From positions 1 to 21,936 of the IMG/VR virus record IMGVR_UViG_3300006737_000259: 21,936 nt of DNA; one strand, 5' to 3'. Source of the stretch: a virus. The first letter of the stretch is position 1, and the number at the start of each line of letters is the position of its first letter. Made by a program: the position numbers and the translations under genes. Below the pieces are notes generated by a model. It searched no databases. It saw only the letters and a program-made list of their open reading frames with translations, and was not told the DNA's origin. This document shows positions 2,352 to 21,102 of the stretch, in pieces.

Positions 2352-5300
2352 CTAAACATCATAATTTTTAAAACTCAATCTATTAGTTCTGGTTACTAGA
2401 GGTCCAGTATTAATTCCAAGAACTCCATTTTGACCTTCAAATGTATATGTGTTAGTTTTACTTCTTCCCTTGACATCTATTCTACCCCAACTAAATTCGC
2501 CTAAGAATGGTCTATTGATAAATGGACCAGTGTAACCTATTGATACATCAGAACCTCCACCAATATCAGAATTTTGATTATCAAAGCTATAATTTGTAGA
2601 ATCAAAATATATCGATGATGACGAGAAGTTAAATGTAGATATTCCACTTATTCTAGTCTCAACTCTAACAACACTTGTTAAAGCAGTTCCAACAGTAGAT
2701 ATTCCTATGTGAGTATTTGCAACACTAACGATAGATGCAGAATCTACTTGATAAACATTATCAAAGAAAGACTTACCTGTTGCAACTATAGTATTATCTA
2801 AACTTCTAGAGATTATAGAGGTTTGTGCAAATCCAATATTTGAATTATTGATTACAAAGTAATCACCAATACTGATGCCACTTAATGTTGTTGCTGTACC
2901 TACAATATCAGAGTCTCTTAAGAAAGAGTTTTGAGGAATATAGAAATCAAATATTAGTTTATCAATATTTGATGAAACAGTAGTTCCAAATCCAACAACT
3001 GTTCCAGAGTCCCCATTATAGGAAGATACTGTGTTTGTTTCGGTAATTAATGTAGGAGGATCGATAAGAACCTGTGGAGCAGATGTATATCCTGTTCCTC
3101 CATAAGTTACCGATATTGAAGTTACTTGACCATTAGAAATAGCAGCAGTTGCTGTTGCTGTTGATCCTATTCCAGTAGGTGTTTGTATAGAAACATTAGG
3201 AACACTTACATATCCAGAACCTGAACTTACTACGCTAATTGAAGTAACAGAACCACTTGATATAGTAGCAGATGAAATTGTTCCAATCTTGTCTTGTTGA
3301 GATGTTATCGTTACTTTGTCTTGTACGCTCTCTCTAACACTAGCACTAGCATTTTCATTTACTGGATTAAAGAATGGTCTAATATTATCAACAAAGAAGG
3401 AAGTTGACCCTATACCAACTGATTTTAATATTACAGTTGCTGGATGTATATTTGGTTCATAAAACTCTCTATCCTTACCTATTTCAACATCATTAATAAT
3501 TCTATCTTCTGTTTGTCTACAAAGTTTCACAGGACGTATTAAAGTTTCATCTTCAGTATTACCTGGTCCAAAGTATGGATTGGTGGATACAATATCTGTT
3601 GAATCAATTCTGGTAACAATTCTTTCCTCTTCTTGCACATTTGGTGTTTGTCCAATTGATGCATCAAAATTAATTGTTAAATCATCACCCTTTTTAACTG
3701 TTTCAATAACACTTCTTGGTTTTACGTCAATAGCACCACTTCCCTTATAGAATATAACTTTACAAGTATCTCCTACTTTAGGTGCTTCAGTAAATGTAAT
3801 TATACTTCCTCCTGTAAAGGTATAACCTTTACCTGGAACTTGAAGTACATCATTAACAAATACTAATATAACATCTTGAACATTTATTTTAGAACCTACT
3901 GCAGCAATAATAGAAACGATTTCCCCATCTTTTTCTAATTGGAAAGCAACCGTTTCTCCATCAAAGAATTTTTCTGGACTATCTAATGGTTCTAATTGAC
4001 CTAATGACCAACCATTGAATTCATCACTAAAGATTTCGTCAATTGTTAATTGGAATTCTTTATATGAACTTGTAGTTGGGATTCCTGTTGCACCACCAAT
4101 AGGCAATGTTAAAATTTCCCCAATACCAAATCCATATCCAGTATTCTGTATATTAAATTCCGTTACACTAGAACCTTGTCCTACAACAACGTCAACAACC
4201 GCATCTGAACCTACACCTGAGACTGAATTAGAACTATATTGTAGAGGTATGCCTGTATATGATAATGGATTATCAAAGATAATATCTAATGGTTTTTCAA
4301 CTTTACCGCATCTAGAATATGTGTGTGCTCTAGTCGAAATTCCTGTATTAACTACAAATTTCTTGTTAGTCAATACTCTAAGAACATTAGTTCCATTGAA
4401 TGCAGAATCTCTGCCAGTGCCAGAGTTATTAACTGCTCTTGGTGCTATAATAGCTCCCTGTGCAGTTCCTCCAGATGAATAAAATGTAGGTACTGTAGAT
4501 ACGCCTGCATTAACTTCAAATTCAGTAGCACTATTAACTGCAGTAACAGGGGTTCCGCAATACACAGGATCTGTAGTTCTTGGGTAAACATGTGTAGAAC
4601 TGCCGTTATCTAAACCACACGTAAATGCTAGTCCTGCTAATACAACGTCACTTCTTTGACCTGTTGTAGACAATCCGTGAGCAGCTGCAGTAGTAACTGT
4701 CATAATACCAGTTACATTGTTATAAATTGCATTAGTAACATTAACTGAAGTAGCACCACTATAATTACAAGTAAATACTATACCAGATAGTTTAATTTCA
4801 TCATTTCTTTGCAATCCATGATTTGCTGACGTGGTTACTGTTGTAATACCTGTAGTATTATCATAAAGAACATTAGAAATATTCTTTGGTGCATAGAATA
4901 CATGATCAGTGGTTATACCAACGGAACTTACATGACCATCCGATATGGTTGCAGTTCCTATTTTAACAATCGATGCCCCTTCAAGACTTTCTCGCTGTAT
5001 TGATACATTAACAGTTTGTATTCCTGATCGATAACCAGAACCACTATTACCAATAGCAACAGAGGTAATTGTTCCTGCAGCAGATACAATTGCTGTTCCT
5101 CCAGCAGCAACTAATGGTTGATATCCAAATCCTTCAGTAGAACCAACAGAAAGTATAACACCTCCTAGAGGTAAAGATGTAAGATTTGCATCTGTTGTGG
5201 AAGATGCTGTTCCAACAAAACTAATAGATGTAATACCTGCATTTTCGCTTAAACTATATGATTGAATAGGATTTTGGAATACATCATTAACTAAGATTAC

Positions 5301-8300
5301 AGCATTATCATTTGCTATACCACTGACATTAGAACCTTCAGATTTTAATACAAAATCTTTTTTGATTCCATTAAACTCATGAGATACACTATCAAAAATA
5401 TAATTTTTTGAATATGTTTCATTAGAACTATTTTCAATACCAGAACGAAGGAATGATCTACCTTGGAAACTAGAACTAGTTGATATACCTGTCCAATCTC
5501 TACTATCAGGTGGATTTGTTGATGTGCTTAGTGGTAGATTTCCAAATGGTGCTTCAATAAAATTAAGAACATTTTCTACAATGTTATAATTACCATCAAC
5601 TTTAGTAACTAAGGATGATGTAGAATGACCTGCTATGGAGGTTCCCATCCAACCTCTACGCACTCTAATATTAGTAGCACTTCCAATACCAACACCTTCA
5701 ATCTTCATTATCTCACTTCCAATCCTAATTAAATCGCCACCGAAGAATGATGTGATCCCTGTAAATGGAATAATGTCAGAAGTTGTAAATACTTGATTTG
5801 CAATAGTTGTTGTTACAGCAGTTGCTACAACTGGTGATTGAATTATATTATCTAAACAAAGAAGAACTTTTGCATTTTGATTTGTTGATACAAATCTATG
5901 CGATGTTCCAATACCTACGCTCGTGAGGTCAACTGTTTCTGGGATTGAAAGTAATGCTTTTTGTGCAGTCTCTGCAATTTTTATCTTATTATCATCAACT
6001 TTTACTGCAAATACATTAGATGGTAATTTATCAGTTGTACCTATCCCAACAAATCCATTAGTAGCAGAAATACCAATTGCTTGAGTTGTACCTGCACCAG
6101 CATGAACATAATTAATTTTTTCACCACTTACAAAGAAGTGATTTGGAATTTCAATTGTATCATTTGCAGTACTAACTACTTGCGAATTAGAAGCATTGAA
6201 ACTTCTTTCAAATATTGGAAGTCCTGCATGAGTTAAATTAAAAGCACGTTTGATATCTCTATCAGTTCCTGTATATGATCCAGATTCAACTTCAATAGAT
6301 GAATTGTTTCCAAAATCAACAACATCTTTTTCATCATCTTCAATTCTTAATGCATTCATAAACACCTTAACATTAGTTGCAGTGTTAGGAAGTGGAGTAA
6401 ATAATAATCGAGTATCATTACCATTTAAATCTGTATGGAATGTTCCTAATCCAGAAAGAGTTAAATTTTCTGTGGTTGTAATAACTGCATACTCATCCGT
6501 AGTGTAAGTTTCTGTAGAATCGTTAATTACAATTAATTCTGCTATAGCAGACTCATTATTAGTAGTATCAGTTACTTGAATATTAAAGTAAGCAGAACTA
6601 TACAAATCATTAGTATCCTGTGTATTAGGATAAGAACCAACAACATTTGCAGTTGGTGATCCTGAAGATGCTATTTGAGTAGATCTACTTGTTAATCTAG
6701 CATGTTTCAAATCAATAGTAGAAGCTGCACTTACTGCTTCATTTGAATTAGCAACTACAAGTGCATTAACAACTGCAGTTGTTCCAATTCCAGTATTGGG
6801 GTGGAAATTAATATTAAAATTAGAACCACTAATTTCTGCAGAATATGTTCCAAACCCTGTAATATCTACATTGTTTAGAGTGGTTGTCATCTCTCCATAT
6901 TCAAGAAGTTGAACATCGGTTCCATCATGAACAATATTTAATTCTTCAAATTCAAACTCATCCAGTAATCCAACTTCTTCACTATTAGCAGTAATTTGTA
7001 AAACAACTTTAGCTGATGTATAAGTTTTTCCAATTGATACAATAGTTGTAGATGGATTTGATTTTGGAACTAATGTGCTGTGAGAATCTATTAATGTAGT
7101 TCCTAATGCAGTTGATCCTACACTCGCAAGATTATCATCTAAGTTATATGATAAAGATACTATATCATAATCGTTGACTGTAGACTTATTTGGGAAGAAT
7201 AATAATTGTCCATCAGATCCAACAATAGAGAAATCAAATGCTCCCATATCATACTGACTTTCAATTCTTCCATATTGATTAATATATCCAAACGAACCAT
7301 CATGAATTAAATCGACAATCATCAATTGTCTTTGACCAGTAAACCTTTTATCTCTAACAAAAGTAATATACTTTTTAGCTCTATGATCTATAAGAGGAAA
7401 TGTATCTACGACACTGAATGGGGTAGAACGTGGATTACTATTAAATGATCCACTCATATCATCTATTGAAAGAACTCTATTTCCAATAGACTCTTCGTAA
7501 TCAGATAATATTCTACTAGAAAATATTATTTTATCCGAAATAACTCCTGAAGGAGTGTTAATTGAATTTTCTTTTACTAAATCAAAGTCATTAACACAAT
7601 TTAAATCTACTTGACTAATTAAATCATTTACGATATTTAAGTAAGTAGTCTCTGTATTTAAACCAACTGATATTGGTCTTTCTTGAGTAGATTCAAGTTG
7701 GAAATCTGCAAACTTTTTATATCCTAATGTATGGTTTAAAGCACTAACAACATCATCCCAATCACGGAATGCAACTTTAGATTTTAATGAGTATGAGAAG
7801 TTTTGATAGTAATCATTATCTTGTATTCTTTGAGTATCATTATTTAAATAACCAGAAGTTGTTTCCCATCCATTTTCTACTTTAGAGAATGAATCTATTT
7901 TTAAACTAGCATCATATTGAGATACATCTTTAGCAACACCTTGAGTTTTAGATGATACTCCTTTAATAACTTGATCTTTTTTAAATACATCTTTAGAAGA
8001 TACTACTAAAGTTTCATTGCTAGGATCCCAAGTTTCTACAATACCTTCAGATAAATCTGCAGTTACTTTTTCCCCTATAAAGTAATCGTTAGTTGATAAC
8101 TTTATATCAAATAATGGGAAATGTTTTTTAGGTATTACTCTTGCAGCAGTAGAATTTTTTGGATCATAAGTTCCAGGAAACTCTCCGACTAACAAACTAT
8201 TTGCTAAACTGAAAGTTACTATTCCAATCCCACCAAGATTTGGATCAACTGAGCTTACTGTAAATAACTCATAATCATACTCAGCAGAATTAAATCCTCT

Positions 8301-11300
8301 TTGAGTAGTACCAATACCAACACTAACATTTTCAATTAATATTTTATCACCAGTTTCAAACGGGAATGAATTTTCTGTACTAAATCCAACAGATAAAGTT
8401 AATGTAACATCCTTTGTTGTTGAATTATATCTGACAGTACTGATACCAACTCCATTAGAGTTTTGAGTAGGGATAATTTCAGGAGTAACTTGACTAATAC
8501 CAGTTGTATTTTTTAAAATAGAAACTTGAGGATCACCTAACTTATAAGTGATATCTATATCAGTTATTTGCTTTTTAGTTTCTCCATCAAATACTAATAA
8601 TTTAGGAGCAGTCGAATAACCTCTACCAACAGATGAAATTCCAATTGATTCAAATGATGTTAAAGATTTTAAATCTATAATTTGAGGTAAAGCAACCGAT
8701 GGACTTAATGTTGTATCTGAGGGGAAATTAAATCCAATATTTTTTATTTCTGTTTTCTTAATTACACCTATACTTGTACTTGCAGCACTAACAACTGCAT
8801 TTTTACCAAAAAATGTCGTAATGGTTGAAATACCAGGTACTACCTTATAATTTCTTCCAGCATCTTTAATACGGAATTTTGAAATTGCACCATATGCAGT
8901 TTTTGATGTTGTTGTGTATTTAAGAACAGAAGCAGCATCAGTATATGTATTTCTTTCTGGGAATTGTTTTACGGTATATGTAAATGAACTAGTTGAACCA
9001 ACGCCAACTGTAACTTTATGTTCTCCATTGTATAAACTACCCTTTACTTGAATTTCATCACTGTTTGGAACTTCTAAATCAATAATTGGATTTTGTTTTG
9101 CTAAAGGAGAATCTCCTTCAAATACAGGTTCTAATTTATAGAATAAAGTTTTGGGAATATTGTTATTAACTGTTAAAGAAATTTTTGCATCAGAAGTAAT
9201 ACCAATCGCACCTGTTTGTTTAACTTCAAATGCATCACTATCTTTAGTTTTATTAAATTGCTTAGTTAAATTTCTGTCATTATAGAAATTAAAATTAAAC
9301 GCAGAGAATGATACTCCTTGATTTACATATCCTAAAGAATTATCTGAAAGATTAAAATCTACTACAGAATCTGCAAATACTTTTATTGGAGGATTTACTG
9401 GATTGATAGTTCCTGTTCCAGTATTTTGTAAATTAACAATAATTGGTTTAATTATTGTTGAATTATAATAAGTATCTGATAATTTAATTGTATTTGTATC
9501 AATTACAACAACATAATAAATCCTATCATTACTTAAACCTGATATGGGTGTTGCTGCAGTATGAATTACTTTTTGACCAGTAGAATATCCATGATCCAAT
9601 ATTCTTATAGTGTTATTAGGAACATTAATATCCGCATCAGCAAAATCTCTAGGATTTATTATAATTCTTCTATTAAAATCATTATATAAAACATTAAATG
9701 TAGCAGCAACCGATGGATTTACATCAATAATTACTTTATCATCTGTAACCAATCCATGAGAACTTCCAGCAGAAACAGTTATTAAATTTCTCGTTACAGT
9801 TCCTGTTATTGGTTTGTAATTAGTTTTTAAACTATGAAATACTCCTGTTCCTATTCCAGAAAACGCTAATGTACTAGCACTTGTTTCAACTCCAACAAAA
9901 CCACCTGTAGTTCCTAAACCAACACGAACGGTTGCTACACCAACTAAGTCGGATGTTATTTTTGCAGCAAATAATGTTTGACTATCAACTAAATCGAATG
10001 AAGTAGAACCATTATCAACTTTTAAAGGAGTTCCACCATTAGCAAAATATGTTAATTGATCACCAGTTTCTAATCCATGATTTTTTAAGAAAATAGATTT
10101 AGTTGGTATGAATAAACTAGTTACGCCAACACCAGGTCTATTAAAGAATACAGTACTACCAATTCCAACACCAACATCTGTTCCCTGTGCTACTGTTTCG
10201 GTAGGATTGAAATAAATTTCTTTATTTCTTTTCGCCTTTGAAGTTGTTTCAATACCAGCATTAATTGTAATAATACGAGGTTTTTTACTTACTACGGTAG
10301 TTACCGTATGTTGTATCCCAACAGTTCCCTCTTGACCCCGTAAGGCTCTTACTCTACTAAAACCTTTTTCTACATTTAAAACTTTAATATTTTCATCACC
10401 CACTTCAAGAATATCATTTTCCGTAAGATCTTCAAAATTACCAGATAAATTAAAGAAAGTAACTACTCCTGTTGTTGCTACATTTTCTACAGCAATTGTA
10501 GTAGTTCCTATACCAGTTAAAGCAAAACTGGATGTAGATATTCCAGCATCATAATCTCCTTCCAATCCAGAAGAAGTTGTAGACAATCCAGATAAAACAA
10601 CAATTTCTAAGTTATTAAAATTATGAGGACTATCACAAATAACATCCCACTTACCCGTTGAATTGGGATATATTTCAGTATTGTTGATTGCACTTATACC
10701 ACCACTAACTTGGTTGATAGATTTTCCTAAAATATCAGATACGATTACATTTGCACCAAAACCTTGTTCTGTTTTTTCAAATACTATGGAGTCTCCAACT
10801 TGATAAGATTCACCAGATGTTTCGATACCTATTTTTTCTATTACACCAGGTAAAATAGATTTAACATCTATTTTTTGTGATAAATTGTCAGGTACATATG
10901 CATAATTATATCTGGTAACTTGATTCTCTATCAAATTATAAGGAGTTGTATTTCTACGGAAAGAAGACTTATCTAAATTAAAGTCTGTTTGATTTGAAAA
11001 AATACTAAAGTTAAAATTATTTGGAATAGATTGATATGTATTACCTATTAAATATGGGAATACTGGTCTTTTAAACTTATCAAAAGTCCCTGCGGAATCT
11101 GCATTACCTGGTTCAAGAGTAGTAAAGTAAGCATAAGTTCCTTTTGGAAATTCTGGTGTTACACAAAATCTTCCATTGTTTTCATCAAGAACAGACTCAT
11201 CTTTAACTTTTTTGTAAGAAAAATCATTTACAAAAAATCCTAGAGGGTATATTGAAACTGATGGTCTATTTGGTTGTAACTTTAATGAATATCCAGATTT

Positions 11301-14300
11301 TAATTGTGAGATAACCCCACCTTGATTTGTAGTATATCCATAAGGTCCATAAATTGGATTGCCATCATACGCCCATCCTATGATAGGAGAATGATTATCC
11401 GAAACATTTTCTATTCCATTTATTTTTGTTAAATCAGGTTTTCCAAATAATATTCTACCTGCTTGATCTCTTTGGAATACAGACTCTCTTAATTTCCTTG
11501 GAGCATATAAATGAGAATATTGTAATCCTTTATTAGGAGTAAATTTATGTGATAAGAATCCATCATCTTCTGTAAATGTATTGAAATATTTTTCAAATAG
11601 ATTAACTCTCCATGTTTGAATAATAGGTCTAAATTTAGCACCAACACCAGATGGAGTAATAGTTATTTTTGTATCGTTTTGAGTATATCCAATACCAGAT
11701 TCAATAACTTTAACAGAAATTAATTTATTATTTTCTATAATGGGTGTTAAAACAGCACCAATACCAGAACCAAAAATATTAATATTTGGCGAAGAATTAT
11801 ATTCATCACCTGAATTCTGAACTAAGACTTCAACAATCTTTCCATCAACTATAATTGGAGAAAGTTGAGCATTTTTACCAGAACTTAATATTATATTAGG
11901 TCTTCTATTAAAATTAAGAATTTCAGGATCACCATAGTTTTCTCCATTATCAAATAAATGGATAGATTTTATTTCTCCTCTAATAATAGGTTCAATCTTA
12001 GCACCAAAGGTTTCATGGACATCACCACTAAATCCTGCAGTACTAATTCCTATTTGACCAGATATAGAAACATTTATATCTTGATAATTAAAAGTATGTG
12101 TTCCAAGTCCAACAGAAGTTAAATTAACATATTGTTTAGTATCATAGAAAAATTGTTTATTTCCAGTATCAATTCCTACTGCAGATAATTTGAAACTATG
12201 ATCATCAATCTTAGTTACAAAATATTCAGACTTGTCAGATAATCCACCAACAGGAGTTTCTGCTGCTGTATATTTTATTATTTCCCCAGAATTATATCCA
12301 TGCTCAGAAATTGAAATAATATTAGATGAAGTATTAATTCCTGCAGGAGTAGACGTTACTTTATTATTAGCATAACCAGAACCACTGGATATTATATTAA
12401 TACTTTCAACAACTGATTTTTTAGAGGTTGTTTTAAAATCATGTCTACCAACACCTAGTGATGTTAATTGAACAGTATTAATCCCAGCTATTGCATCTCT
12501 TTCAGTCAAATGCAATTTAACGTTTGTTGTATCAACTACTGATGCAAAATAAACAGCATCAGTTGAGATTCCACCTACAGGTCTTTGTCCTTTTGTTTCA
12601 TAAATTATTGCTTCAGCATTTCTAAATTTATGGAAAGTACTGAAACCAATAGTATTATTATCTACAGCACTAGTTGATTGTGAATTAAATGAAACTTGAT
12701 GTTCAATTAATTTTGTATTTACAGTGGCAACTGCATCTTTACCATTACCACCATTAATTGAAACTACTGGTGTATCTACATAATCAAATCCAGAATTAAC
12801 AACTCTAATTTCTTCAAACGCACCAGAAACTGAAACATACCCAGTTGCTCCTGTACCTACATTATCTTTAATAGTTAAATTTGGTGGATTTATAACATCA
12901 TACTTTGTACCGCCAGATAAAACTTCCACTCTATCTAATTGACCAAAGTATATTACATCCTTAGATTTATAATTTAAAATCTCTACACCATTAATTAATA
13001 TGCCAGTAAATCCAATTTCAGTATCATATCTCAATCCATCATTTTGAACTGGAGATATTTCTCTAAAAATATCTTGAGACTGTAGAGTTTTGCCCTCAAA
13101 ATTAAATGGTTGAATAATATTATCTTCTATTGTAACTGGGGTCTCAATAGATATAAAATTAGAATTTTCTAGATCTGTTCTACTTCGTGAAAGTTTAATC
13201 GTTAAAGCATTGACTCTTTTTATAAAATACAATCCTGCATTAGTAGCTTTCTCATCTGCCTCAATAACACCAAGATCTTCAGAGAATAAAGATGATTTTA
13301 TAACATCTCTTGTTGATAAAATATTATTTGCATCATAGAATTGTTCAGGAACTCTTTGTGGTGAATAATAAACAGCATCACCTGTATGGAAACCATGATC
13401 TCCTCTAAAAATAATTTTAAAATCACTTCCACTAAAAGTACCACCAAAATTTATTGCTTGACTAAAAACATTTAATGGTTGAGCATTATAAGTTGGTATT
13501 GACGAAGATGCAACCAAATATTTGTTTCCGTCTTTATAGAGGTTTTGAACATTGGTTGAGAATATAGACGCATCAGGGAAGGTATTAGAAACTGCCTTAG
13601 AAATATTTCTTTTTACTATGTACTTAAGACTAGTATCAATTAGTCCTTGTCCCTTTAATGTTATAGAAGTCTCACTGTCAATATTAATTAATGTAGATAT
13701 TTCTAATTCATTTCCCGCAGTATCATCTAGTGTTACTGTATCGCCATTTTTAAATGCATGTTCTACAAAAAATTCTATTCTATATGTTTGATCGGTGGCA
13801 TCAACTAAGGTAATTTCTTTGACTTCTAATGTGGGGGCAAGATTATAAAACCAATTCTTAGCGATAAAACTATCATCGTTTACACCTAAAGTTTTGATTT
13901 CTGCAGTTTCTCCAACTGAAAAATTATGAGTATTTCCACTAATTTCTAATTCATTCAAAACTGCAGTTATATTTACTCTAATCTCATCCGTTGGATCTAA
14001 GTTGGATGTACCAAATGCATAAGTATTAATTCCAATATTTGAAGCATCTGCAATTTTTGCAGTTACGCCACTACATCCATAGAACTGATTTACTGATTTT
14101 GATGTATATGAAACAATTCCATTTGTAGCATCAGTAAAGACTACTTTTAATTCTCCTTGATCAGGAAATCCTATTGTAGAATCAACATCAACTACAGTTG
14201 CTCCAATAGAAACAACTCCTATATTTTTAGTTTTATCATGAACAACAAAATTACCATAGATAGCACCCCTAACTCTAATATCTCTATCATAACCAGAGTC

Positions 14301-15188
14301 AAAACTGATTTTATAATATGTCTCTCCTACTCCAACATTAATTGGTTCTACAGATCCAACTGGTGCATATGCTTTATCAATACTTTCGGAACTACCTTGA
14401 AATAAAGTAGAATTTTCTAAATTTCTTGGATCTCCCTGAACTGGTTCAACTACAATGTCATTTGTAATCTTAAAGTTTGCATTAGATGGAGTGAGAAGAA
14501 AATCTCTAGGTTTTATGACCTGAACATTTTGATTATAGAGTGCTTTGAATAAAATTTCAAAAGATCTATCAGTTCCTTTACTTAAGTAAAAATCTTTTGA
14601 TTGTTTTATGAAAAGATTTTGATCTAGGTCTTTATCAAGACTTCTATTCTCTAAACCAGGTAAAATTAAATGTTTTGTTTTTAATAAGAACTCTTTAAGA
14701 AACAGACTACTTAAATTTTGTATCTTAGACCCACCTGTATGCCCCTCAGAGGTGCTTGAATTGAATACTAGTACATCTGGATTGTTTATTGCTTTATATG
14801 ACGTTATACCACAAAATCCTCTTACACAACCTGTAAACGAAGTAGTTGTAATTCCAGTATATGTTATAATCTCATTATCAATTTTTAAAAGTCCATAAGA
14901 CTTAGGAAATCCATCAGTTCCTCTTGGGAAGTTGACCATATCAACTTCAATAGTCTCATCACTAATTGTAACATCAGTTCTTAATCCAACAGACTCTGTA
15001 AGGTTGGTTATATTTTCAATTTTAACATATTCATCAATATTTTGAATTAAATCAATAGGACCGCCTTGATATTCTTGTCCTTGGTAATAAGACTTTAAAA
15101 ATTCAGAAACTAAAGGGAACTCACTCTGTGTAAACACAGGAAGTTGATTTTGAACAATGTTATTAAACTGGATTCTTGTTTCTGGCAT
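2352..15188 (-). CDS. Giant (4278 aa) virion protein with gp7-like N-terminus and YHYH domain
   Basis: One uninterrupted frame of 4278 codons starts 1 nt after the gp6 stop (TAA-A-ATG). Residues 1-240 are non-repetitive and include LFLKEFLLKTKHLILPGLEN, the charged stretch DQNLFIKQSKDFYLSKGTDR and then SFEILFKALYNQ (about 162-219). I associate this pattern with baseplate wedge proteins, and the place after gp6 is that of T4 gene 7 (T4 gp7 is about 1030 aa). The rest is beta-repeat sequence: HG-x-x-(S/T)G-(D/E) modules starting at H598, H853, H963, H1704, H1866 and H3017; Gly-Tyr repeats, for example 1068-1190 and 3968-4045; a YHYH domain at about 1265-1385 (GWAYDGNPIYGPYGY, later CVTPEFPKGTYAYF); a duplicated domain at 2740-2830 and 2873-2960; and an FTC-to-YPRTTDP module near Y3535. 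No signal peptide or membrane helix is seen. It probably builds the outer baseplate and long fibre-like extensions. The structural role is secure by context; the gp7 link is inference. Confidence 0.85.
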   Translation of the reverse strand: MPETRIQFNNIVQNQLPVFTQSEFPLVSEFLKSYYQGQEYQGGPIDLIQNIDEYVKIENITNLTESVGLRTDVTISDETIEVDMVNFPRGTDGFPKSYGLLKIDNEIITYTGITTTSFTGCVRGFCGITSYKAINNPDVLVFNSSTSEGHTGGSKIQNLSSLFLKEFLLKTKHLILPGLENRSLDKDLDQNLFIKQSKDFYLSKGTDRSFEILFKALYNQNVQVIKPRDFLLTPSNANFKITNDIVVEPVQGDPRNLENSTLFQGSSESIDKAYAPVGSVEPINVGVGETYYKISFDSGYDRDIRVRGAIYGNFVVHDKTKNIGVVSIGATVVDVDSTIGFPDQGELKVVFTDATNGIVSYTSKSVNQFYGCSGVTAKIADASNIGINTYAFGTSNLDPTDEIRVNITAVLNELEISGNTHNFSVGETAEIKTLGVNDDSFIAKNWFYNLAPTLEVKEITLVDATDQTYRIEFFVEHAFKNGDTVTLDDTAGNELEISTLINIDSETSITLKGQGLIDTSLKYIVKRNISKAVSNTFPDASIFSTNVQNLYKDGNKYLVASSSIPTYNAQPLNVFSQAINFGGTFSGSDFKIIFRGDHGFHTGDAVYYSPQRVPEQFYDANNILSTRDVIKSSLFSEDLGVIEADEKATNAGLYFIKRVNALTIKLSRSRTDLENSNFISIETPVTIEDNIIQPFNFEGKTLQSQDIFREISPVQNDGLRYDTEIGFTGILINGVEILNYKSKDVIYFGQLDRVEVLSGGTKYDVINPPNLTIKDNVGTGATGYVSVSGAFEEIRVVNSGFDYVDTPVVSINGGNGKDAVATVNTKLIEHQVSFNSQSTSAVDNNTIGFSTFHKFRNAEAIIYETKGQRPVGGISTDAVYFASVVDTTNVKLHLTERDAIAGINTVQLTSLGVGRHDFKTTSKKSVVESINIISSGSGYANNKVTSTPAGINTSSNIISISEHGYNSGEIIKYTAAETPVGGLSDKSEYFVTKIDDHSFKLSAVGIDTGNKQFFYDTKQYVNLTSVGLGTHTFNYQDINVSISGQIGISTAGFSGDVHETFGAKIEPIIRGEIKSIHLFDNGENYGDPEILNFNRRPNIILSSGKNAQLSPIIVDGKIVEVLVQNSGDEYNSSPNINIFGSGIGAVLTPIIENNKLISVKVIESGIGYTQNDTKITITPSGVGAKFRPIIQTWRVNLFEKYFNTFTEDDGFLSHKFTPNKGLQYSHLYAPRKLRESVFQRDQAGRILFGKPDLTKINGIENVSDNHSPIIGWAYDGNPIYGPYGYTTNQGGVISQLKSGYSLKLQPNRPSVSIYPLGFFVNDFSYKKVKDESVLDENNGRFCVTPEFPKGTYAYFTTLEPGNADSAGTFDKFKRPVFPYLIGNTYQSIPNNFNFSIFSNQTDFNLDKSSFRRNTTPYNLIENQVTRYNYAYVPDNLSQKIDVKSILPGVIEKIGIETSGESYQVGDSIVFEKTEQGFGANVIVSDILGKSINQVSGGISAINNTEIYPNSTGKWDVICDSPHNFNNLEIVVLSGLSTTSSGLEGDYDAGISTSSFALTGIGTTTIAVENVATTGVVTFFNLSGNFEDLTENDILEVGDENIKVLNVEKGFSRVRALRGQEGTVGIQHTVTTVVSKKPRIITINAGIETTSKAKRNKEIYFNPTETVAQGTDVGVGIGSTVFFNRPGVGVTSLFIPTKSIFLKNHGLETGDQLTYFANGGTPLKVDNGSTSFDLVDSQTLFAAKITSDLVGVATVRVGLGTTGGFVGVETSASTLAFSGIGTGVFHSLKTNYKPITGTVTRNLITVSAGSSHGLVTDDKVIIDVNPSVAATFNVLYNDFNRRIIINPRDFADADINVPNNTIRILDHGYSTGQKVIHTAATPISGLSNDRIYYVVVIDTNTIKLSDTYYNSTIIKPIIVNLQNTGTGTINPVNPPIKVFADSVVDFNLSDNSLGYVNQGVSFSAFNFNFYNDRNLTKQFNKTKDSDAFEVKQTGAIGITSDAKISLTVNNNIPKTLFYKLEPVFEGDSPLAKQNPIIDLEVPNSDEIQVKGSLYNGEHKVTVGVGSTSSFTYTVKQFPERNTYTDAASVLKYTTTSKTAYGAISKFRIKDAGRNYKVVPGISTITTFFGKNAVVSAASTSIGVIKKTEIKNIGFNFPSDTTLSPSVALPQIIDLKSLTSFESIGISSVGRGYSTAPKLLVFDGETKKQITDIDITYKLGDPQVSILKNTTGISQVTPEIIPTQNSNGVGISTVRYNSTTKDVTLTLSVGFSTENSFPFETGDKILIENVSVGIGTTQRGFNSAEYDYELFTVSSVDPNLGGIGIVTFSLANSLLVGEFPGTYDPKNSTAARVIPKKHFPLFDIKLSTNDYFIGEKVTADLSEGIVETWDPSNETLVVSSKDVFKKDQVIKGVSSKTQGVAKDVSQYDASLKIDSFSKVENGWETTSGYLNNDTQRIQDNDYYQNFSYSLKSKVAFRDWDDVVSALNHTLGYKKFADFQLESTQERPISVGLNTETTYLNIVNDLISQVDLNCVNDFDLVKENSINTPSGVISDKIIFSSRILSDYEESIGNRVLSIDDMSGSFNSNPRSTPFSVVDTFPLIDHRAKKYITFVRDKRFTGQRQLMIVDLIHDGSFGYINQYGRIESQYDMGAFDFSIVGSDGQLLFFPNKSTVNDYDIVSLSYNLDDNLASVGSTALGTTLIDSHSTLVPKSNPSTTIVSIGKTYTSAKVVLQITANSEEVGLLDEFEFEELNIVHDGTDVQLLEYGEMTTTLNNVDITGFGTYSAEISGSNFNINFHPNTGIGTTAVVNALVVANSNEAVSAASTIDLKHARLTSRSTQIASSGSPTANVVGSYPNTQDTNDLYSSAYFNIQVTDTTNNESAIAELIVINDSTETYTTDEYAVITTTENLTLSGLGTFHTDLNGNDTRLLFTPLPNTATNVKVFMNALRIEDDEKDVVDFGNNSSIEVESGSYTGTDRDIKRAFNLTHAGLPIFERSFNASNSQVVSTANDTIEIPNHFFVSGEKINYVHAGAGTTQAIGISATNGFVGIGTTDKLPSNVFAVKVDDNKIKIAETAQKALLSIPETVDLTSVGIGTSHRFVSTNQNAKVLLCLDNIIQSPVVATAVTTTIANQVFTTSDIIPFTGITSFFGGDLIRIGSEIMKIEGVGIGSATNIRVRRGWMGTSIAGHSTSSLVTKVDGNYNIVENVLNFIEAPFGNLPLSTSTNPPDSRDWTGISTSSSFQGRSFLRSGIENSSNETYSKNYIFDSVSHEFNGIKKDFVLKSEGSNVSGIANDNAVILVNDVFQNPIQSYSLSENAGITSISFVGTASSTTDANLTSLPLGGVILSVGSTEGFGYQPLVAAGGTAIVSAAGTITSVAIGNSGSGYRSGIQTVNVSIQRESLEGASIVKIGTATISDGHVSSVGITTDHVFYAPKNISNVLYDNTTGITTVTTSANHGLQRNDEIKLSGIVFTCNYSGATSVNVTNAIYNNVTGIMTVTTAAAHGLSTTGQRSDVVLAGLAFTCGLDNGSSTHVYPRTTDPVYCGTPVTAVNSATEFEVNAGVSTVPTFYSSGGTAQGAIIAPRAVNNSGTGRDSAFNGTNVLRVLTNKKFVVNTGISTRAHTYSRCGKVEKPLDIIFDNPLSYTGIPLQYSSNSVSGVGSDAVVDVVVGQGSSVTEFNIQNTGYGFGIGEILTLPIGGATGIPTTSSYKEFQLTIDEIFSDEFNGWSLGQLEPLDSPEKFFDGETVAFQLEKDGEIVSIIAAVGSKINVQDVILVFVNDVLQVPGKGYTFTGGSIITFTEAPKVGDTCKVIFYKGSGAIDVKPRSVIETVKKGDDLTINFDASIGQTPNVQEEERIVTRIDSTDIVSTNPYFGPGNTEDETLIRPVKLCRQTEDRIINDVEIGKDREFYEPNIHPATVILKSVGIGSTSFFVDNIRPFFNPVNENASASVRESVQDKVTITSQQDKIGTISSATISSGSVTSISVVSSGSGYVSVPNVSIQTPTGIGSTATATAAISNGQVTSISVTYGGTGYTSAPQVLIDPPTLITETNTVSSYNGDSGTVVGFGTTVSSNIDKLIFDFYIPQNSFLRDSDIVGTATTLSGISIGDYFVINNSNIGFAQTSIISRSLDNTIVATGKSFFDNVYQVDSASIVSVANTHIGISTVGTALTSVVRVETRISGISTFNFSSSSIYFDSTNYSFDNQNSDIGGGSDVSIGYTGPFINRPFLGEFSWGRIDVKGRSKTNTYTFEGQNGVLGINTGPLVTRTNRLSFKNYDV

Positions 15189-15189
15189 T

Positions 15190-17115
15190 TTATGATCTTA
15201 CTAGGTTCCCGTTATGGTAGCTGGATGTAACAATATAGTTAGATGCAGATGGATCAAGTCCAGATGCAATTTCATCAATAACAGTATCAAAATTACTCTT
15301 ACTAATATCTAGTTGTAAATATAAATCCTGTAATCCAATCACGTCATTGGATTTTGGACAAGCAGAAAGTTCAATAATTGGTTGACCATCTTTTAATTTT
15401 CCGCTTATAATATTAATTGGGTTAATTGTTATGATCCCTTTCTTATAATTTATATTACCAACGTTCCTCCTCACTATAGTTGGTGTAGTTGAATTTTCGG
15501 AAGGTAATGTAAATAAAAATAGAGATCCTGTTATTCTATTAGTGTCAGGTATGTCAGAAAGGTAAACATTATCAGAAATATCATTAATTCTGAATGCAGA
15601 TGATTTAATATTATAACCATCCATACTCTTTATATAAAATTCATTACCAAAACCTATTTGATACTCTGCAAAAGAATTTGCAGCAATTCTTAGGTCTCTT
15701 CTCATTAAAATTGTTGTAATATTAGATGTTACTGCTTCAGTACTATCATCTATGACTGTTAAAAATTTACTATACTTAAATCTGGCACCATATCTATTTA
15801 ATTCACTTGATTCTGAGTACTTTGTAGCATTTTCTTGAACCAAAGTAGAGACAAATTCAGCAGAAGGTGCTAAATTGGAGTTATAATACACTTTTGAGTC
15901 AATTTCAATAAACAAATACTTCAAATCAAGTATTTCTGGAACAATTCCAGCAACTGCAAATTTCTTCAACTTCATTTTGATGTTTTCTTTGATTAAATTA
16001 GGAAGAAAATCACCATTTCTTGGTTTTATGCTTATAAAGACCTTTCCAAATTGAGGTGGTACTAATTCTTCACCTCCAAAAACAGAAATTGACTCTGTTT
16101 CGGGATAAATCTTTGCTGGAATTAATGTTTCATAGTCATTTGCTGTTAAAGCACGGTTTTGAGAGGCATAAATTCGTGGTGCAAACTTTTTAATTGAATC
16201 CACACTCTCAATTACCTCTCCACCTTGAGCAGAAACGCTTGTAGTAAGCAAAGAGATGCCTGTTGTAACTGTATACTCGATTGAATTACGAATATACGTT
16301 AATTTACCTGAAAATTGAAATTGATTTATACCATTTGCACTATCACCATTGCAAGTTATGTAATCTACAGTAATAAAATTACCTTCTTCTAGTTTTTCTC
16401 CAAAAATTCCATCTCCAAAAAATATTTCATACCTTTCATTTTCAATTTCTTGTAAAAAATAAACTTTTGAGTTAGATTTTACGTCTAAAAGACTATCTTG
16501 TGTTGTATATTTTGTAGAAGTAGTAGATTGTTCATTTCCTTTTACAGAAACTGCGATTAATTCAGTATCAATACCACTATTTGGTAAAACAAATTTCTGA
16601 TTTGGGGTTCTAGAATTAAAAGTAAAGTTTGAAGTTAAAAATGTTCCCTCAGAAACAGGAAGATCGTCAAAAGATGCAATTCCATCAATAACAGGAACGG
16701 TAATATCACTTAAAATTGAAAAAACAAACGACTGATTACCGAAAGTTCCTTCAGATGCAGCAATTGGACCTCTTTTAAGAGTTAATGTTGCAGGAGTTGG
16801 TACAATACTTGAACAATCTACGAAAAAATTAACATTTGCTGTTGCTGCTTTTCTTGATCTTGGTACATATCCTATATTTCTTGCTAAAGATACTACATTT
16901 TCTCTTAAAGTAGCACTATCAATGAACACTTCGTTCGTTACCATGTTGGCATTGTACGAAGTAATGTAAGTATTATATGCCAATACGTCAATTATTGACG
17001 AAAGGTTAGAACCCTCGAAGTCGTAATCTGTAAAATTAGAATTAGCTTGTAGGTAATCCTTAAGAGTTGTCTTAATCTGCTCAAAATCCAGATTAGAAAA
17101 GTTAACTAATGGCAT
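15190..17115 (-). CDS. 6: Baseplate wedge protein gp6
   Basis: The 641-residue length fits T4 gp6 (660 aa), the dimeric ring-forming subunit that joins neighbouring baseplate wedges. The N-terminal part is the family's best-kept region, with SNLSSIIDVLAYNTYITSYN, then NMVTNEVFIDSATLRENV and ARNIGYVPRSRKA (about residues 36-92). A baseplate-J-like central region follows, including AQGGEVIESVDSIKKFAPR and the ALTANDYETLIPAKIYPE stretch, which is typical of phage wedge proteins. The gene sits between gp25 and the giant protein, as T4 gene 6 precedes gene 7. Start and stop sites are packed as TAA-A-ATG at both ends, so translation is likely coupled. No strong Shine-Dalgarno is visible. The start at 17115 is supported by the family-like N-terminus MPLVNFSNLDFEQIK. 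Confidence 0.93.
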   Translation of the reverse strand: MPLVNFSNLDFEQIKTTLKDYLQANSNFTDYDFEGSNLSSIIDVLAYNTYITSYNANMVTNEVFIDSATLRENVVSLARNIGYVPRSRKAATANVNFFVDCSSIVPTPATLTLKRGPIAASEGTFGNQSFVFSILSDITVPVIDGIASFDDLPVSEGTFLTSNFTFNSRTPNQKFVLPNSGIDTELIAVSVKGNEQSTTSTKYTTQDSLLDVKSNSKVYFLQEIENERYEIFFGDGIFGEKLEEGNFITVDYITCNGDSANGINQFQFSGKLTYIRNSIEYTVTTGISLLTTSVSAQGGEVIESVDSIKKFAPRIYASQNRALTANDYETLIPAKIYPETESISVFGGEELVPPQFGKVFISIKPRNGDFLPNLIKENIKMKLKKFAVAGIVPEILDLKYLFIEIDSKVYYNSNLAPSAEFVSTLVQENATKYSESSELNRYGARFKYSKFLTVIDDSTEAVTSNITTILMRRDLRIAANSFAEYQIGFGNEFYIKSMDGYNIKSSAFRINDISDNVYLSDIPDTNRITGSLFLFTLPSENSTTPTIVRRNVGNINYKKGIITINPINIISGKLKDGQPIIELSACPKSNDVIGLQDLYLQLDISKSNFDTVIDEIASGLDPSASNYIVTSSYHNGNLVRS

Positions 17116-17116
17116 T

Positions 17117-17518
17117 TTATCTTGTCGGCAACAATGCGAATTGTAATTCTTGTGGTGGAACGTCTGCTCCTATAATCTCATAGTTCACAAGCACATCAAA
17201 CGAATTGTTTTCCATGTCAGGAAATGCCTCTACGTTAATTAAATTAACTCTTGGTTCAAAATTTTCAATAGATTCGGTGATTTGACTGACAATTAATGAA
17301 GCACTGATGTCATCTACGTTATCAAACAACACTTCATTAACATTAGATCCAAAAGATTCGTTAAAAAATCTTTCACCTGGTAGTGTAAATACAATATTTC
17401 TTATGGAACGGGCAATAGCGTTCTCATTTTTAAGACCAATCAAGTCTGAATTCAGTGGATTAGACTGAAACGTCATGCTAAGATCTTTAAATCCCCTACT
17501 AACCCGTTCTAAAGGCAT
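17117..17518 (-). CDS. 25: Baseplate wedge protein gp25 (GPW/gp25 family)
   Basis: The 133-residue protein matches the length of T4 gp25 (132 aa), the wedge component that contacts the first sheath ring and helps start sheath assembly. The family's Glu-Pro-Arg motif is present at residues 88-90 (ENFEPRVNLINVEA), preceded by the usual helix around RSIRNIVFTLPGERFFNESF. It begins the packed structural run gp25, gp6, giant protein, fibre, protease. A TATAAATA-like box lies 31-38 nt upstream on the same strand, so late transcription of the structural block may begin here. No clear Shine-Dalgarno precedes the ATG. Only the assignment of the start is slightly uncertain; the identity is firm from sequence and neighbourhood. 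Confidence 0.93.
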   Translation of the reverse strand: MPLERVSRGFKDLSMTFQSNPLNSDLIGLKNENAIARSIRNIVFTLPGERFFNESFGSNVNEVLFDNVDDISASLIVSQITESIENFEPRVNLINVEAFPDMENNSFDVLVNYEIIGADVPPQELQFALLPTR

Positions 17519-17568: not shown

Positions 17569-17736
17569 TCAAATTTCTGCACCCCCATAACATTCATCGT
17601 CAAAGTCTAGTCCCTCATAGAAATCATTGTCTGATTTCTTCTCATATAGGTCATTCTGTACACTAAAATCATGCTTCTTCGGTGTTATCTGGTCGTTGGA
17701 TATCTCCCTTAACATTTTCTTGTTGTTCATTGTCAT
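17569..17736 (-). CDS. Small acidic protein of unknown function (55 aa)
   Basis: I do not recognise a family. The ATG at 17736 is preferred because AGAGG (complement of 17744-17748) lies 7 nt upstream; an in-frame ATG at 17781 would add 15 residues and has a weaker AGG. The first half is basic and polar (MTMNNKKMLREI), the second strongly acidic and aromatic (SDNDFYEGLDFDDECYGGAE), a pattern typical of small phage regulators or assembly factors, but no function can be assigned. Its first 68 nt overlap the 3' end of the 239-aa gene in another frame; the last 100 nt are its own. It is the last gene before gp25. The Shine-Dalgarno and tight packing support it as a real gene. Confidence 0.6.
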   Translation of the reverse strand: MTMNNKKMLREISNDQITPKKHDFSVQNDLYEKKSDNDFYEGLDFDDECYGGAEI

Positions 17737-18388
17737 TTTCTTTCCTCTCTTTAGTGGTTTTCCAGAAATAATTTTCATCACTACCTAATCCATCCCTATC
17801 ATGACCATTCTCAACCTGATAAAAGACTGTTGAAACCTTAAAATCAGGAGTTTTAGGTGGTTCAGGGGTTAGACTATTATCATAGATACGTATTCTATTG
17901 TTAGGATAGAGTGCAAATTGCCCGTTGTCTAACTCAATTAGGTTATGAGACTTATGTTCAGGTGGATTCTCACTTGTAGAGTAGTCAACCGCATCAACAT
18001 CTTGATGATAGTTGTCTAATGTACAAATATATGTACCTGTTTGTGTCCCATAATCTCTTGTATATAGTTCATAATGCATAGACCCTACAAACTGCTTCTG
18101 AACGGCAACTACGCCATAGTCCATACAATTCCAAAACTGTAGGTTATGTAGGGTTAAATCAGGATCTGGTATCTCAGGCTCACTTAAGAATGCTGATATC
18201 GGTAACTTATCAAACATTGCCGCATAATCAGGTAGATATGTTTCAAAGTAAAAGGCACGTCCAGGTATGCTCTTAGCAGATACCCAGATACCTTTTACAA
18301 ATTCTCCATGACCTCCTTTATGATCTAGGAGGTATTCTTTTCTTACCCATACTTCATATGCAGGTAAGTTACAGATTAGTGCTGGCAT
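17669..18388 (-). CDS. Conserved cyanophage protein of unknown function (239 aa)
   Basis: The N-terminus MPALICNLPAYEVWVRKEYL and the aromatic-rich core (SIPGRAFYFETYLPDYAAMF, LQFWNCMDYGVVAVQKQF, ICTLDNYHQDVDAVDYSTSE, NGQFALYPNNRIRIYD) look like a conserved single-domain protein that I remember from T4-like marine cyanophages, always near the baseplate genes. No catalytic motif is evident to me. The last 30 residues (WKTTKERKENDNEQQENVKG onward) are charged and disordered-looking, and that part overlaps the 55-aa gene. The AGGA box 9 nt before the ATG supports the start, and only 3 nt separate it from the stop of the 46-aa gene upstream, so the two are co-translated. A virion or virion-assembly role is inferred from location only. 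Confidence 0.8.
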   Translation of the reverse strand: MPALICNLPAYEVWVRKEYLLDHKGGHGEFVKGIWVSAKSIPGRAFYFETYLPDYAAMFDKLPISAFLSEPEIPDPDLTLHNLQFWNCMDYGVVAVQKQFVGSMHYELYTRDYGTQTGTYICTLDNYHQDVDAVDYSTSENPPEHKSHNLIELDNGQFALYPNNRIRIYDNSLTPEPPKTPDFKVSTVFYQVENGHDRDGLGSDENYFWKTTKERKENDNEQQENVKGDIQRPDNTEEA

Positions 18389-18563: not shown

Positions 18564-19331
18564 TTAAATTATACGAGTTTTTTCGTGACCCACCCTGATA
18601 CGAGGATCGCACCAAATCTCATAGTCTTTCTCTTTGGCATCTAAGCAGAACGATACGTCCTCTCCACACATGTCCTGAACATTACCAGACTCAAAGACTT
18701 GCATCTTAGGAGCAAACCAAGGGTATTCGAGGTTCTCAAAGACACCATTCTTAATCATAACCCATCCAAAACCTGTGTAGTCTACAGTGAATGGCTTACG
18801 ACGTTTGCTGATCGATTCCACAGTCTCGTGGTTCATTACTCCACCGTTCTTACGGAAGTCATCTTCTTCTAACCAGTGAGCAACAGAAGTAGTTGTGCCA
18901 TCCTCTGTAGCATACCATCCACCAGTTATAGGTCTCTCATCACCTTCAGCAGGTACTGCAAGGTCACATAACTGCCAGAACTTCTGTGTGTCAAAGACTA
19001 TATCCGAGTCAATCCATAACTGATAGTCATACTTGAGTTTACCATCCAAAGGTATCTGATTAGGTCCACGTAATACATTTGCTCCGAGACATTTGCATCT
19101 TGCAAAGTTTACCATAGAAGAGTAATCCTGAGATATCTGAATACTCATTCCATTCTGAACCATGTCGAAACATAGTTGTACAAAGTTCTTTAAAAATATA
19201 AACGAACATCCTCTGCCAGGTAAACAGAATACGATTGTTTTTCCTTTCATACGTGCTTTAATAGCATCGTAATCCCATTCCTCTTTTTTAACCGTAGGTG
19301 GTTTTGCCTTAACGGTAAATCCTTTTGCCAT
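18564..19331 (-). CDS. Glycosyltransferase-like protein (GT-A fold, DxD motif), 255 aa
   Basis: After a Lys-rich N-terminus the protein shows KTIVFCLPGRGCSFIFLKNF (31-50), a typical first beta strand and donor-binding loop, then YDYQLWIDSDIVF with the D108-S-D110 metal/nucleotide-sugar motif, GGWYATEDG (137-145), GFGWVMIKNGVFENLEYPWF (187-206), the acidic GEDVSFCLDAKEK (223-235, candidate catalytic E224/D225) and a terminal HEKT (249-252). This order fits GT-A glycosyltransferases that move a sugar from a nucleotide-sugar donor. Its place just upstream of the baseplate block suggests sugar decoration of a virion protein or host surface, which is inference. A perfect sigma70 promoter lies directly upstream; no Shine-Dalgarno is seen before the ATG. 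Base composition is visibly less AT-rich than in the giant gene. The substrate is unknown. Confidence 0.75.
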   Translation of the reverse strand: MAKGFTVKAKPPTVKKEEWDYDAIKARMKGKTIVFCLPGRGCSFIFLKNFVQLCFDMVQNGMSIQISQDYSSMVNFARCKCLGANVLRGPNQIPLDGKLKYDYQLWIDSDIVFDTQKFWQLCDLAVPAEGDERPITGGWYATEDGTTTSVAHWLEEDDFRKNGGVMNHETVESISKRRKPFTVDYTGFGWVMIKNGVFENLEYPWFAPKMQVFESGNVQDMCGEDVSFCLDAKEKDYEIWCDPRIRVGHEKTRII

Positions 19332-20271: not shown

Positions 20272-20445
20272 TTAGTAACTGTCAGGGATTGTGAGGTTCT
20301 CGATATAACTTTCTACAGTCTCAATTGGTTCTAATTGTAATACTTTTCTCCAGTCAATCTGTGACGGGTTAAAGTCATTTAGTGTGGTAATATCAAGTGT
20401 TATTCTATACCTACTGTCTGTCTGTTGAAAGTAAGAAACTGTCAC
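20272..20445 (-). CDS. Small protein of unknown function (57 aa), GTG start
   Basis: The frame beginning with GTG at 20445 encodes (M)TVSYFQQTDSRYRITLDI, then TTLNDFNPSQIDWRKVLQLE and a tail ending ENLTIPDSY. Codon composition and the balanced, folded-looking sequence (beta strands then an amphipathic helix) support a real gene; I believe related short proteins occur in cyanophages but cannot name a family. AAGG (complement of 20453-20456) lies 7 nt upstream of GTG; there is no in-frame ATG nearby, and the ATG at 20473 hits a stop after four codons. A perfect sigma70 promoter ends about 31 nt upstream, giving a short leader. It is the first gene after the origin-like region. Confidence 0.72.
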   Translation of the reverse strand: MTVSYFQQTDSRYRITLDITTLNDFNPSQIDWRKVLQLEPIETVESYIENLTIPDSY

Positions 20446-20475
20446 AGGATTACCTTGGTTAGTTGTATATCATCT

Positions 20476-20504
20476 ATTATAATCTAACTGACAGTTCTTG
20501 TCAA
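20476..20504 (-). promoter_or_regulatory. Perfect sigma70-type promoter (TTGACA-N17-TATAAT)
   Basis: Minus strand TTGACA (20504-20499), 17-nt spacer, TATAAT (20481-20476). Start site expected near 20469, about 24 nt before the GTG of the 57-aa gene. It lies at the left end of the DnaA-box cluster, 33 nt from the nearest box. Confidence 0.85.
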
Positions 20505-20536
20505 CCCCACTGACGGATTGTTATGAAACTTGTATA

Positions 20537-20812
20537 TGTGGAAAACTTAATAACCCTACAAAATATTAACGAGGGTCTTGTAGTTTTGGGGCGTTCGTGT
20601 TATAATGAACTCGCTAAGATAACAACACTTCAACACATTTAAGACTATAATTTCCACACTAATTAACACCTTTTCCACAGATTAACTCCCTATTCATTAC
20701 ACATTGTGGAAAACCTTTACATCACTCAACTATATTTAATTTGCTATTTATAATGGTATTTTATACTCAAATACAATAGTTTTCCACAGAAACTAACAAT
20801 AACTGTGGAAAA
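20537..20812. other. Candidate replication origin: cluster of DnaA boxes with AT-rich core
   Basis: Six TTTTCCACA-type sites occur in 276 bp: exact matches at 20537-20545 (minus), 20671-20679 (plus), 20705-20713 (minus), 20780-20788 (plus) and 20804-20812 (minus), plus ATTTCCACA at 20650-20658 (plus). Four have the longer form GTTTTCCACA. TTTTCCACA is the DnaA box form reported for the Synechococcus oriC and differs by one base from the E. coli TTATCCACA. Between boxes 4 and 5, 20731-20766 is almost entirely A/T, a plausible unwinding element. No gene is seen in 20446-20829. I see no other exact copy of the box elsewhere in the window. The origin function is inference. Confidence 0.6.
20598..20606 (+). 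promoter_or_regulatory. Extended -10 promoter on the plus strand inside the origin-like region
   Basis: TGTTATAATG fits an extended -10 (TGnTATAAT). The -35 position 17 nt upstream reads TTGTAG (three of six). Transcription would run rightward through the DnaA boxes and the AT-rich core, against all genes of the window, with no plus-strand gene downstream. Confidence 0.35.
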
Positions 20813-20829
20813 CTCCTACTCAATTGTTG

Positions 20830-21102
20830 TTACTTAGTATCTGTTATCTTTGGATAGTTTGTATAACTGAACTTAGGAAATCTATAGTTCCAATCTTTAA
20901 TAATTTCACCATATAATCCTTCATCAAAGTTATAACTTGTCATTACATTTTCATCCTTAGCTATTACTTTGCTTTCTAATTGTTCAGAGATCTTATTACA
21001 AATACCTTCTAATTCTGCAACTAATTGTTCATCATCATTACCTACACAGTACCCCTCTAGACTATAAAGAATAGTCTCTAATTCCTTTTCTGTAAATGAC
21101 AT
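20830..21102 (-). CDS. Unknown protein (90 aa)
   Basis: I do not recognise a family. The sequence MSFTEKELETILYSLEGYCV through QLVAELEGICNKISEQLESK is predicted as two amphipathic helices with an acidic face, followed by an aromatic C-terminal part (LYGEIIKDWNYRFPKFSYTN). Two cysteines (C19, C35) are present without a metal-binding pattern. AGAGG (complement of 21111-21115) sits 8 nt before the ATG and fixes the start. It follows the 71-aa gene by 16 nt and is the last gene before the origin-like region, so a role connected to early phage metabolism or replication is possible but unsupported by sequence. Confidence 0.75.
   Translation of the reverse strand: MSFTEKELETILYSLEGYCVGNDDEQLVAELEGICNKISEQLESKVIAKDENVMTSYNFDEGLYGEIIKDWNYRFPKFSYTNYPKITDTK

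Follow-up and report, generated by a model that had tools for sequence, protein, structure and literature searches.

A clustered array of cyanobacterial-type DnaA boxes upstream of gene 25 in T4-like cyanophages: a candidate host-DnaA-dependent replication origin

Genes and box cluster of the window

The window, i.e., the whole 21,936-bp stretch of DNA analyzed here, is a T4-like cyanophage record (IMG/VR IMGVR_UViG_3300006737_000259). Its minus strand encodes the baseplate wedge subunits gp6 (15190..17115) and gp25 (17117..17518), a protein of doubtful identity (17669-18388), and a protein with a weak glycosyltransferase match (phrog_1574, hereafter GT; 18564..19331). This order (gp6, gp25, "purM/ferredoxin", GT) matches that of S-SM2 and SynMITS9220M01. 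Relatives annotate the third protein variously as purM (AIR synthetase) or ferredoxin, and because it has no Pfam match, both names are doubtful. After gp6 lies a single ORF of 4,278 amino acids (2352-15188, minus strand), in the place where named relatives annotate a giant baseplate wedge initiator (gp7). Downstream of this giant baseplate gene is a gene for a subtilase-family serine protease (3-1268, minus strand; PF00082, E 1.2e-13) that is truncated by the contig end.

The region upstream of GT includes a gap (20446-20829) in which no credible genes are found. It is bordered by a 57-residue ORF of unknown function (phrog_12516; 20272..20445, minus strand) and, on the opposite side, by a 90-residue orphan ORF (20830..21102, minus strand) that is shared with only one near-identical contig in IMG/VR. 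Within this gap, and 1.2 kb from GT, 276 bp of non-coding DNA (20537-20812) hold five exact copies of TTTTCCACA and one copy of the variant ATTTCCACA. Box 1 (20804..20812, minus strand) has the orientation of gp25 and is convergent with box 2 (20780..20788, plus strand) at a start spacing of 24; the two form a perfect 12-bp inverted repeat with arms at 20778-20789 and 20803-20814 and a loop of 13 bp. Box 3 (20705..20713, minus strand) is followed at a start spacing of 34 by box 4 (20671..20679, plus strand), and the variant box (20650..20658, plus strand) lies 21 bp from box 4. Box 5 (20537..20545, minus strand) closes the array; boxes 4 and 5 are supported by exact match and by alignment. The count of five exact sites and one 8/9 match, in both orientations and in non-coding DNA, had been proposed by a first-pass annotation made without database searches, and it holds.

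A search of the whole record finds no further exact TTTTCCACA outside the cluster. Second-order Markov simulations predict 0.38 exact sites per window, and among 400 simulated windows no 276-bp stretch contains more than two. The Poisson probability of five exact sites in 276 bp, taken over the whole window, is ~1e-12, and it remains ~1e-12 under a model fitted to the intergenic DNA. Allowing one mismatch gives an ordinary whole-window count (12 vs 10.5 expected), and the signal is thus a cluster of exact sites rather than a genome-wide excess.

Between the two box groups lies an A/T-rich core (20731..20766) in which 31 of 36 positions are A/T (86%); over 20725-20774 the content is 80%. Its description in the first-pass annotation as almost pure A/T is slightly overstated, and part of it is a late promoter. 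That T4-type element, TATAAATA (20745..20752, minus strand), is directed at GT and gp25, and its position is constant within the window's clade; the cyanophage late promoter is described as NATAAATA (PMC2984593). A second A/T copy, TTAAATA, lies beside it on the minus strand (20733-20739), and the core elements AAAT and TAAAT are conserved in an alignment of 16 clade sequences. The idea that TATAAATA generally accompanies the boxes was rejected, because its position is fixed only in this clade. Just past the last box, a perfect sigma-70 promoter (TTGACA-17-TATAAT, 12/12 matches; 20476..20504, minus strand) points from the cluster to gp25 and is partly conserved in the clade. Both promoters could serve transcription, or they might aid opening as promoters do at other origins. 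The same 16-sequence alignment reveals a conserved non-coding block between the boxes, TTATCTTAGCGAG...TATAACACGAACG (20592..20622, minus strand), to which no role is assigned.

Occurrence among viral contigs and named cyanomyoviruses

The position of the boxes was assessed in two samples that were blind to them. The first comprises 80 IMG/VR contigs picked solely by their GT protein. Fifty-four of the 58 exact TTTTCCACA sites in this sample fall 0.65-2.7 kb upstream of GT, in 79 kb of DNA, and the remaining four are spread over 531 kb elsewhere. TTTTCCACA is by a wide margin the top enriched 9-mer upstream of GT (54 vs 0.8 expected, log10 p -78.6), the reversed 9-mer used as a control is flat, and of the 28 contigs that extend 2 kb or more upstream, 12 have at least two exact boxes. 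In the second sample, picked by gp25, the bins at 2-4 kb upstream account for 23 boxes and the remainder for five.

A complementary scan of 2.9 million viral contigs, based only on the motif, searched for convergent TTTTCCACA pairs and returned at least 120 contigs, and its counts are not prevalence figures. At least 64 of these contigs carry conserved proteins of the window, and another 27 show some resemblance to proteins of cyanomyoviruses. In all of the gp25-bearing contigs, the paired boxes lie upstream of gp25, at distances of 1.8-9 kb. Searching nucleotide sequences with the 400-bp intergenic stretch alone yields only short matches, because the spacers diverge. Two further groups of contigs stand out. 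Another cyanomyovirus lineage (L017, L022, L053, L078, and L107) shares a different array of 7-8 boxes, with at least three tandem boxes followed by a convergent pair ~150-240 bp away. Contigs of high GC content (0.54-0.69) from the motif scan have TTTTCCACA clusters and no cyanomyovirus-like protein, e.g., L072 (cluster at 6064-6179, GC 0.60), and their phage type and host are unresolved.

Among named cyanomyoviruses, the cluster is present in 11 of the 23 tested. Over whole genomes TTTTCCACA is infrequent, with 0-8 copies in each, close to the numbers for the reversed control. In S-SM2, S-PM2, Syn9, S-CREM1, P-TIM68, and ACG-2014g, the best cluster of the entire genome is at this locus, and homology mapping places it between a UvsW-like helicase gene and gp25; in S-PM2 this order spans the start point of the circular map. 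The cluster is likewise present in S-SM1 and S-ShM2. Three further phages whose boxes were not previously known, Syn33, S-MbCM6, and S-CAM8, were taken after the rule had been formed. All three have the cluster, by annotation between the helicase and gp25, and their only convergent pairs are found there. In five genomes beyond the first six, convergent pairs were found at this locus only, in keeping with a single locus per replicon.

The remaining 12 of the 23 lack a comparable cluster of exact boxes; they include P-SSM2, P-SSM4, P-HM2, S-T4, S-SSM7, S-CAM9, S-SKS1, Bellamy, SynMITS9220M01, S-RSM4, and ACG-2014f. The cluster is therefore widespread but patchy among T4-like cyanophages, and since it is missing in about half of the named phages, it cannot be the sole replication start of the group. 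The first-pass annotation had named an equal box density elsewhere in the genome and a lack of conservation in related phages as refutations of an origin. Neither applies: complete relatives that have the cluster have their best one here, and the position is kept in many relatives, with the absences just listed.

Individual genomes add some local detail. Syn9 and Syn33-type phages have small annotated ORFs that overlap the boxes. In S-PM2 a triple box lies at or inside the annotated coordinates of tRNA-Asn and tRNA-Leu (19.18-19.33 kb). These positions hold a box array and then A/T-rich DNA, so that the tRNA coordinates look shifted; repetitive AAATCTCA/TTAAGATT sequence comes next. P-SSM2 has 959 bp without annotated genes upstream of GT (68.3-69.2 kb), and a search of this non-coding stretch for boxes found none; it may represent another kind of origin or contain unannotated small genes.

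Box spacing, sequence variants, and the probable reader

Array anatomy was derived from 84 distinct clusters, with similar spacers removed before the period statistics. Convergent pairs are spaced by 13-14, 23-25, or 34-35 bp, with the 23-25 class, to which boxes 1 and 2 belong, being the commonest; tandem pairs are spaced by 11-12 or 20-22 bp. In both arrangements the spacing of neighboring boxes follows the helical repeat with a period of 10.5-10.6 bp (R = 0.76 at 10.5 bp and p ~3e-13 for 50 distinct convergent pairs; R = 0.82 and p ~2e-10 for 33 tandem pairs), which fits cooperative binding on one face of the helix.

The conservation pattern has the form of a footprint. Across the 16 aligned sequences of the window's clade, the box columns are invariant or nearly so (box 1 falls in such columns and box 3 is invariant), and the spacers have diverged. 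Among single-mismatch variants, TTATCCACA is enriched at the locus (11 vs 0.46 expected), as are ATTTCCACA in relatives (7 vs 0.64 expected) and TATTCCACA; the commonest other variants, TTTTCCAAA, TTTTCCATA, and TTTTCCAGA, show no enrichment there. Phasing, invariant boxes, and chosen variants together look like a cooperative, sequence-specific protein array, an inference from sequence alone.

TTTTCCACA is an experimentally bound cyanobacterial DnaA box, and in vitro domain IV of Cyanothece DnaA binds two neighboring copies and not clearly a single one (PMC4674748). The phage array resembles the dnaN-proximal oriC of cyanobacteria (Synechococcus elongatus PCC 7942, Anabaena 7120, and Cyanothece 51142) in its 9-mer, its flanks, its multiple boxes in both orientations, and its convergent pairs; it differs in being located on a lytic genome, upstream of gene 25, and without dnaA or dnaN nearby. 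A picocyanobacterial MAG has six copies of TTTTCCACA just upstream of dnaN, and the convergent pair in that MAG has a flank, TTTCTGTGGAAAACTAT, in common with the phage pair. The Bac_DnaA_C domain is absent from the six box-bearing phage genomes searched, with a control that is positive in 10 of 14. Owing to the identity of the cyanobacterial box, the likeness to the MAG oriC, and the lack of a phage DnaA DNA-binding domain, host DnaA is probably the reader and is the most economical one. Binding is assigned by analogy, as there are no binding data for the phage array.

The evidence does not support the boxes as a marker of host lineage. Their use as such a marker, suggested by the first-pass annotation, is rejected on two grounds: (i) paired TTTTCCACA also occurs in the genomes of many other bacterial phyla, and (ii) WH7803 is host both to phages that carry the cluster and to phages that lack it.

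The origin reading and its alternatives

Phage T4 is not known to use host DnaA for starting replication. Its genome has no DnaA-box cluster, only scattered sites (three of TTATCCACA and two of TTTTCCACA). The annotated position of T4 oriF (ori uvsY), 115321, falls between uvsW and gene 25, and the cyanophage cluster occupies the same interval between a UvsW-like helicase gene and gene 25; the helicase of Syn9 hits the same PHROG families as T4 UvsW. T4 and the cyanophages are unlike in gene orientation and in distances, so the positional equivalence with oriF is suggestive only. The two also differ in that the uvsY transcript supplies the primer at oriF, which fires from a MotA-dependent promoter. 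Since motA and asiA are both missing from cyanomyoviruses (PMC2984593), a T4-style origin in these phages would need another initiator. On this literature basis, the expectation of a MotA-dependent middle promoter with an R-loop is not met, and the window has a sigma-70 promoter instead.

The evidence tips, by a modest margin, toward the cluster being a host-DnaA-binding array that acts as a phage replication origin. In this view, host DnaA would bind cooperatively to convergent and tandem boxes along one helix face and would open the adjoining A/T-rich stretch, in the window possibly the core at 20731-20766 as a candidate unwinding element. The opening would provide the first loading site for the phage T4-type replisome (gp41 helicase, gp61 primase, and gp43 polymerase), and recombination-dependent replication would then take over, as in T4. 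What is shown is the basis of this reading, namely box identity, clustering, conservation of position, helical phasing, footprint conservation, likeness to host oriC, and, for six phages, the lack of a DnaA DNA-binding domain. That DnaA binds in vivo, opens the duplex, and starts replication is inferred; the host-DnaA-dependent origin that the first-pass annotation considered possible is supported to that extent.

Two lines of evidence give the origin reading little help. GC skew, whether raw, detrended, or at four-fold sites, gives no consistent origin signal in six genomes, and neither a skew minimum nor the skew switch proposed as a check by the first-pass annotation is found at the cluster. 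Skew is a weak test here because the genes are nearly all on one strand. As for an unwinding element, the core of the window is 80-86% A/T but contains the late promoter, and the increase in A/T over all clusters is slight (0.80 vs 0.75 for the richest 40-bp stretch, from sequences that are not independent).

Clusters of host DnaA boxes on a replicon are familiar from the datA-type titration locus and from P1 oriR. Neither corresponds fully to the phage array, since P1 oriR also requires its own RepA and datA is chromosomal and non-initiating. To our knowledge, neither kind has been described in T4-like phages.

Of the alternatives, DnaA titration and transcriptional control are both unlikely and cannot be excluded. 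In the former, the array would be a decoy similar to E. coli datA, with no role in starting phage replication: once the phage had replicated a few times, the array would soak up host DnaA, block host oriC, and free nucleotides. Exact host boxes that are clustered, often with little else around them, are compatible with titration, as is the merely modest A/T excess, and patchy presence is expected for an accessory anti-host device. Against it, a decoy could sit anywhere and would gain from more boxes, whereas these phages keep 2-7 at one locus, and fixed helical phasing with oriC-like pairing suits an ordered complex better than a sponge.

In the transcriptional alternative, DnaA would act on the sigma-70 (20504-20476) and late (20745-20752) promoters and thereby set the early-to-late switch of the operon toward gp25, gp6, and gp7. 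DnaA is a known transcriptional regulator in bacteria, and in the window's clade both promoters are within or adjoining the array. However, sense-strand copies of the late promoter occur within 250 bp of just 18 of the 84 clusters, the distance from cluster to gp25 ranges from 1.8 to 9 kb among contigs, and regulatory sites seldom need 5-7 boxes.

It is very unlikely that TTTTCCACA is read by a phage-encoded protein, whether in an origin, an operator, or a packaging signal. The small genes of the region are mostly without a known function, which leaves room for such a protein, but the motif, its flanking G and G/A, the enriched variants, and the pairing all match host oriC, no DnaA DNA-binding domain is found in six phages, and there is no reason for such a site to equal the host box. 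An RNA reading, in which convergent boxes form stem-loops or terminators in a transcript, is rejected and all but excluded, for although convergent pairs could form stems of 9-12 bp, 49 of 162 neighboring pairs are tandem and unable to pair mutually, the helical phasing of tandem boxes would be meaningless for RNA, and no U-tract terminator is called at the pairs.

Novelty and biological meaning of a possible host-DnaA origin

For the start of replication in T4-like cyanophages, a review records only one predicted origin, the single theta origin of Syn9 (Weigele et al. 2007, as cited in PMC2984593). Syn9 carries the cluster at 52565-52597, which may or may not coincide with that origin, and the prediction may partly anticipate the present finding. 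A literature search returned no report of this cluster, with two key genome papers lying outside that search. Origins with DnaA boxes are already known; the new element would be a host-type origin at a locus conserved among T4-like phages.

A bolder reading, whose parts are advanced jointly and which is somewhat more likely to prove wrong than right, is that in a large proportion of T4-like marine cyanophages the transcription-primed origin of T4 has given way to a copycat of host oriC at the same locus (uvsW - origin - gene 25), such that the first round of replication would be gated by host DnaA and thereby by the host cell cycle.

T4-like cyanophages rank with the most numerous viruses in the sunlit ocean, and how their replication starts is not established. 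The cluster provides an exact, conserved, and mutable site in the cultured phages Syn9, S-PM2, Syn33, S-SM1, and S-ShM2, together with a named host protein, and this opens the question to ordinary bench tests. If the origin reading is true, DNA synthesis by the phage would be coupled to the activity of DnaA and to the cell cycle of the host, with a bearing on diel patterns of infection, and these phages would show that the mechanism of an origin can be swapped while the replisome is kept.
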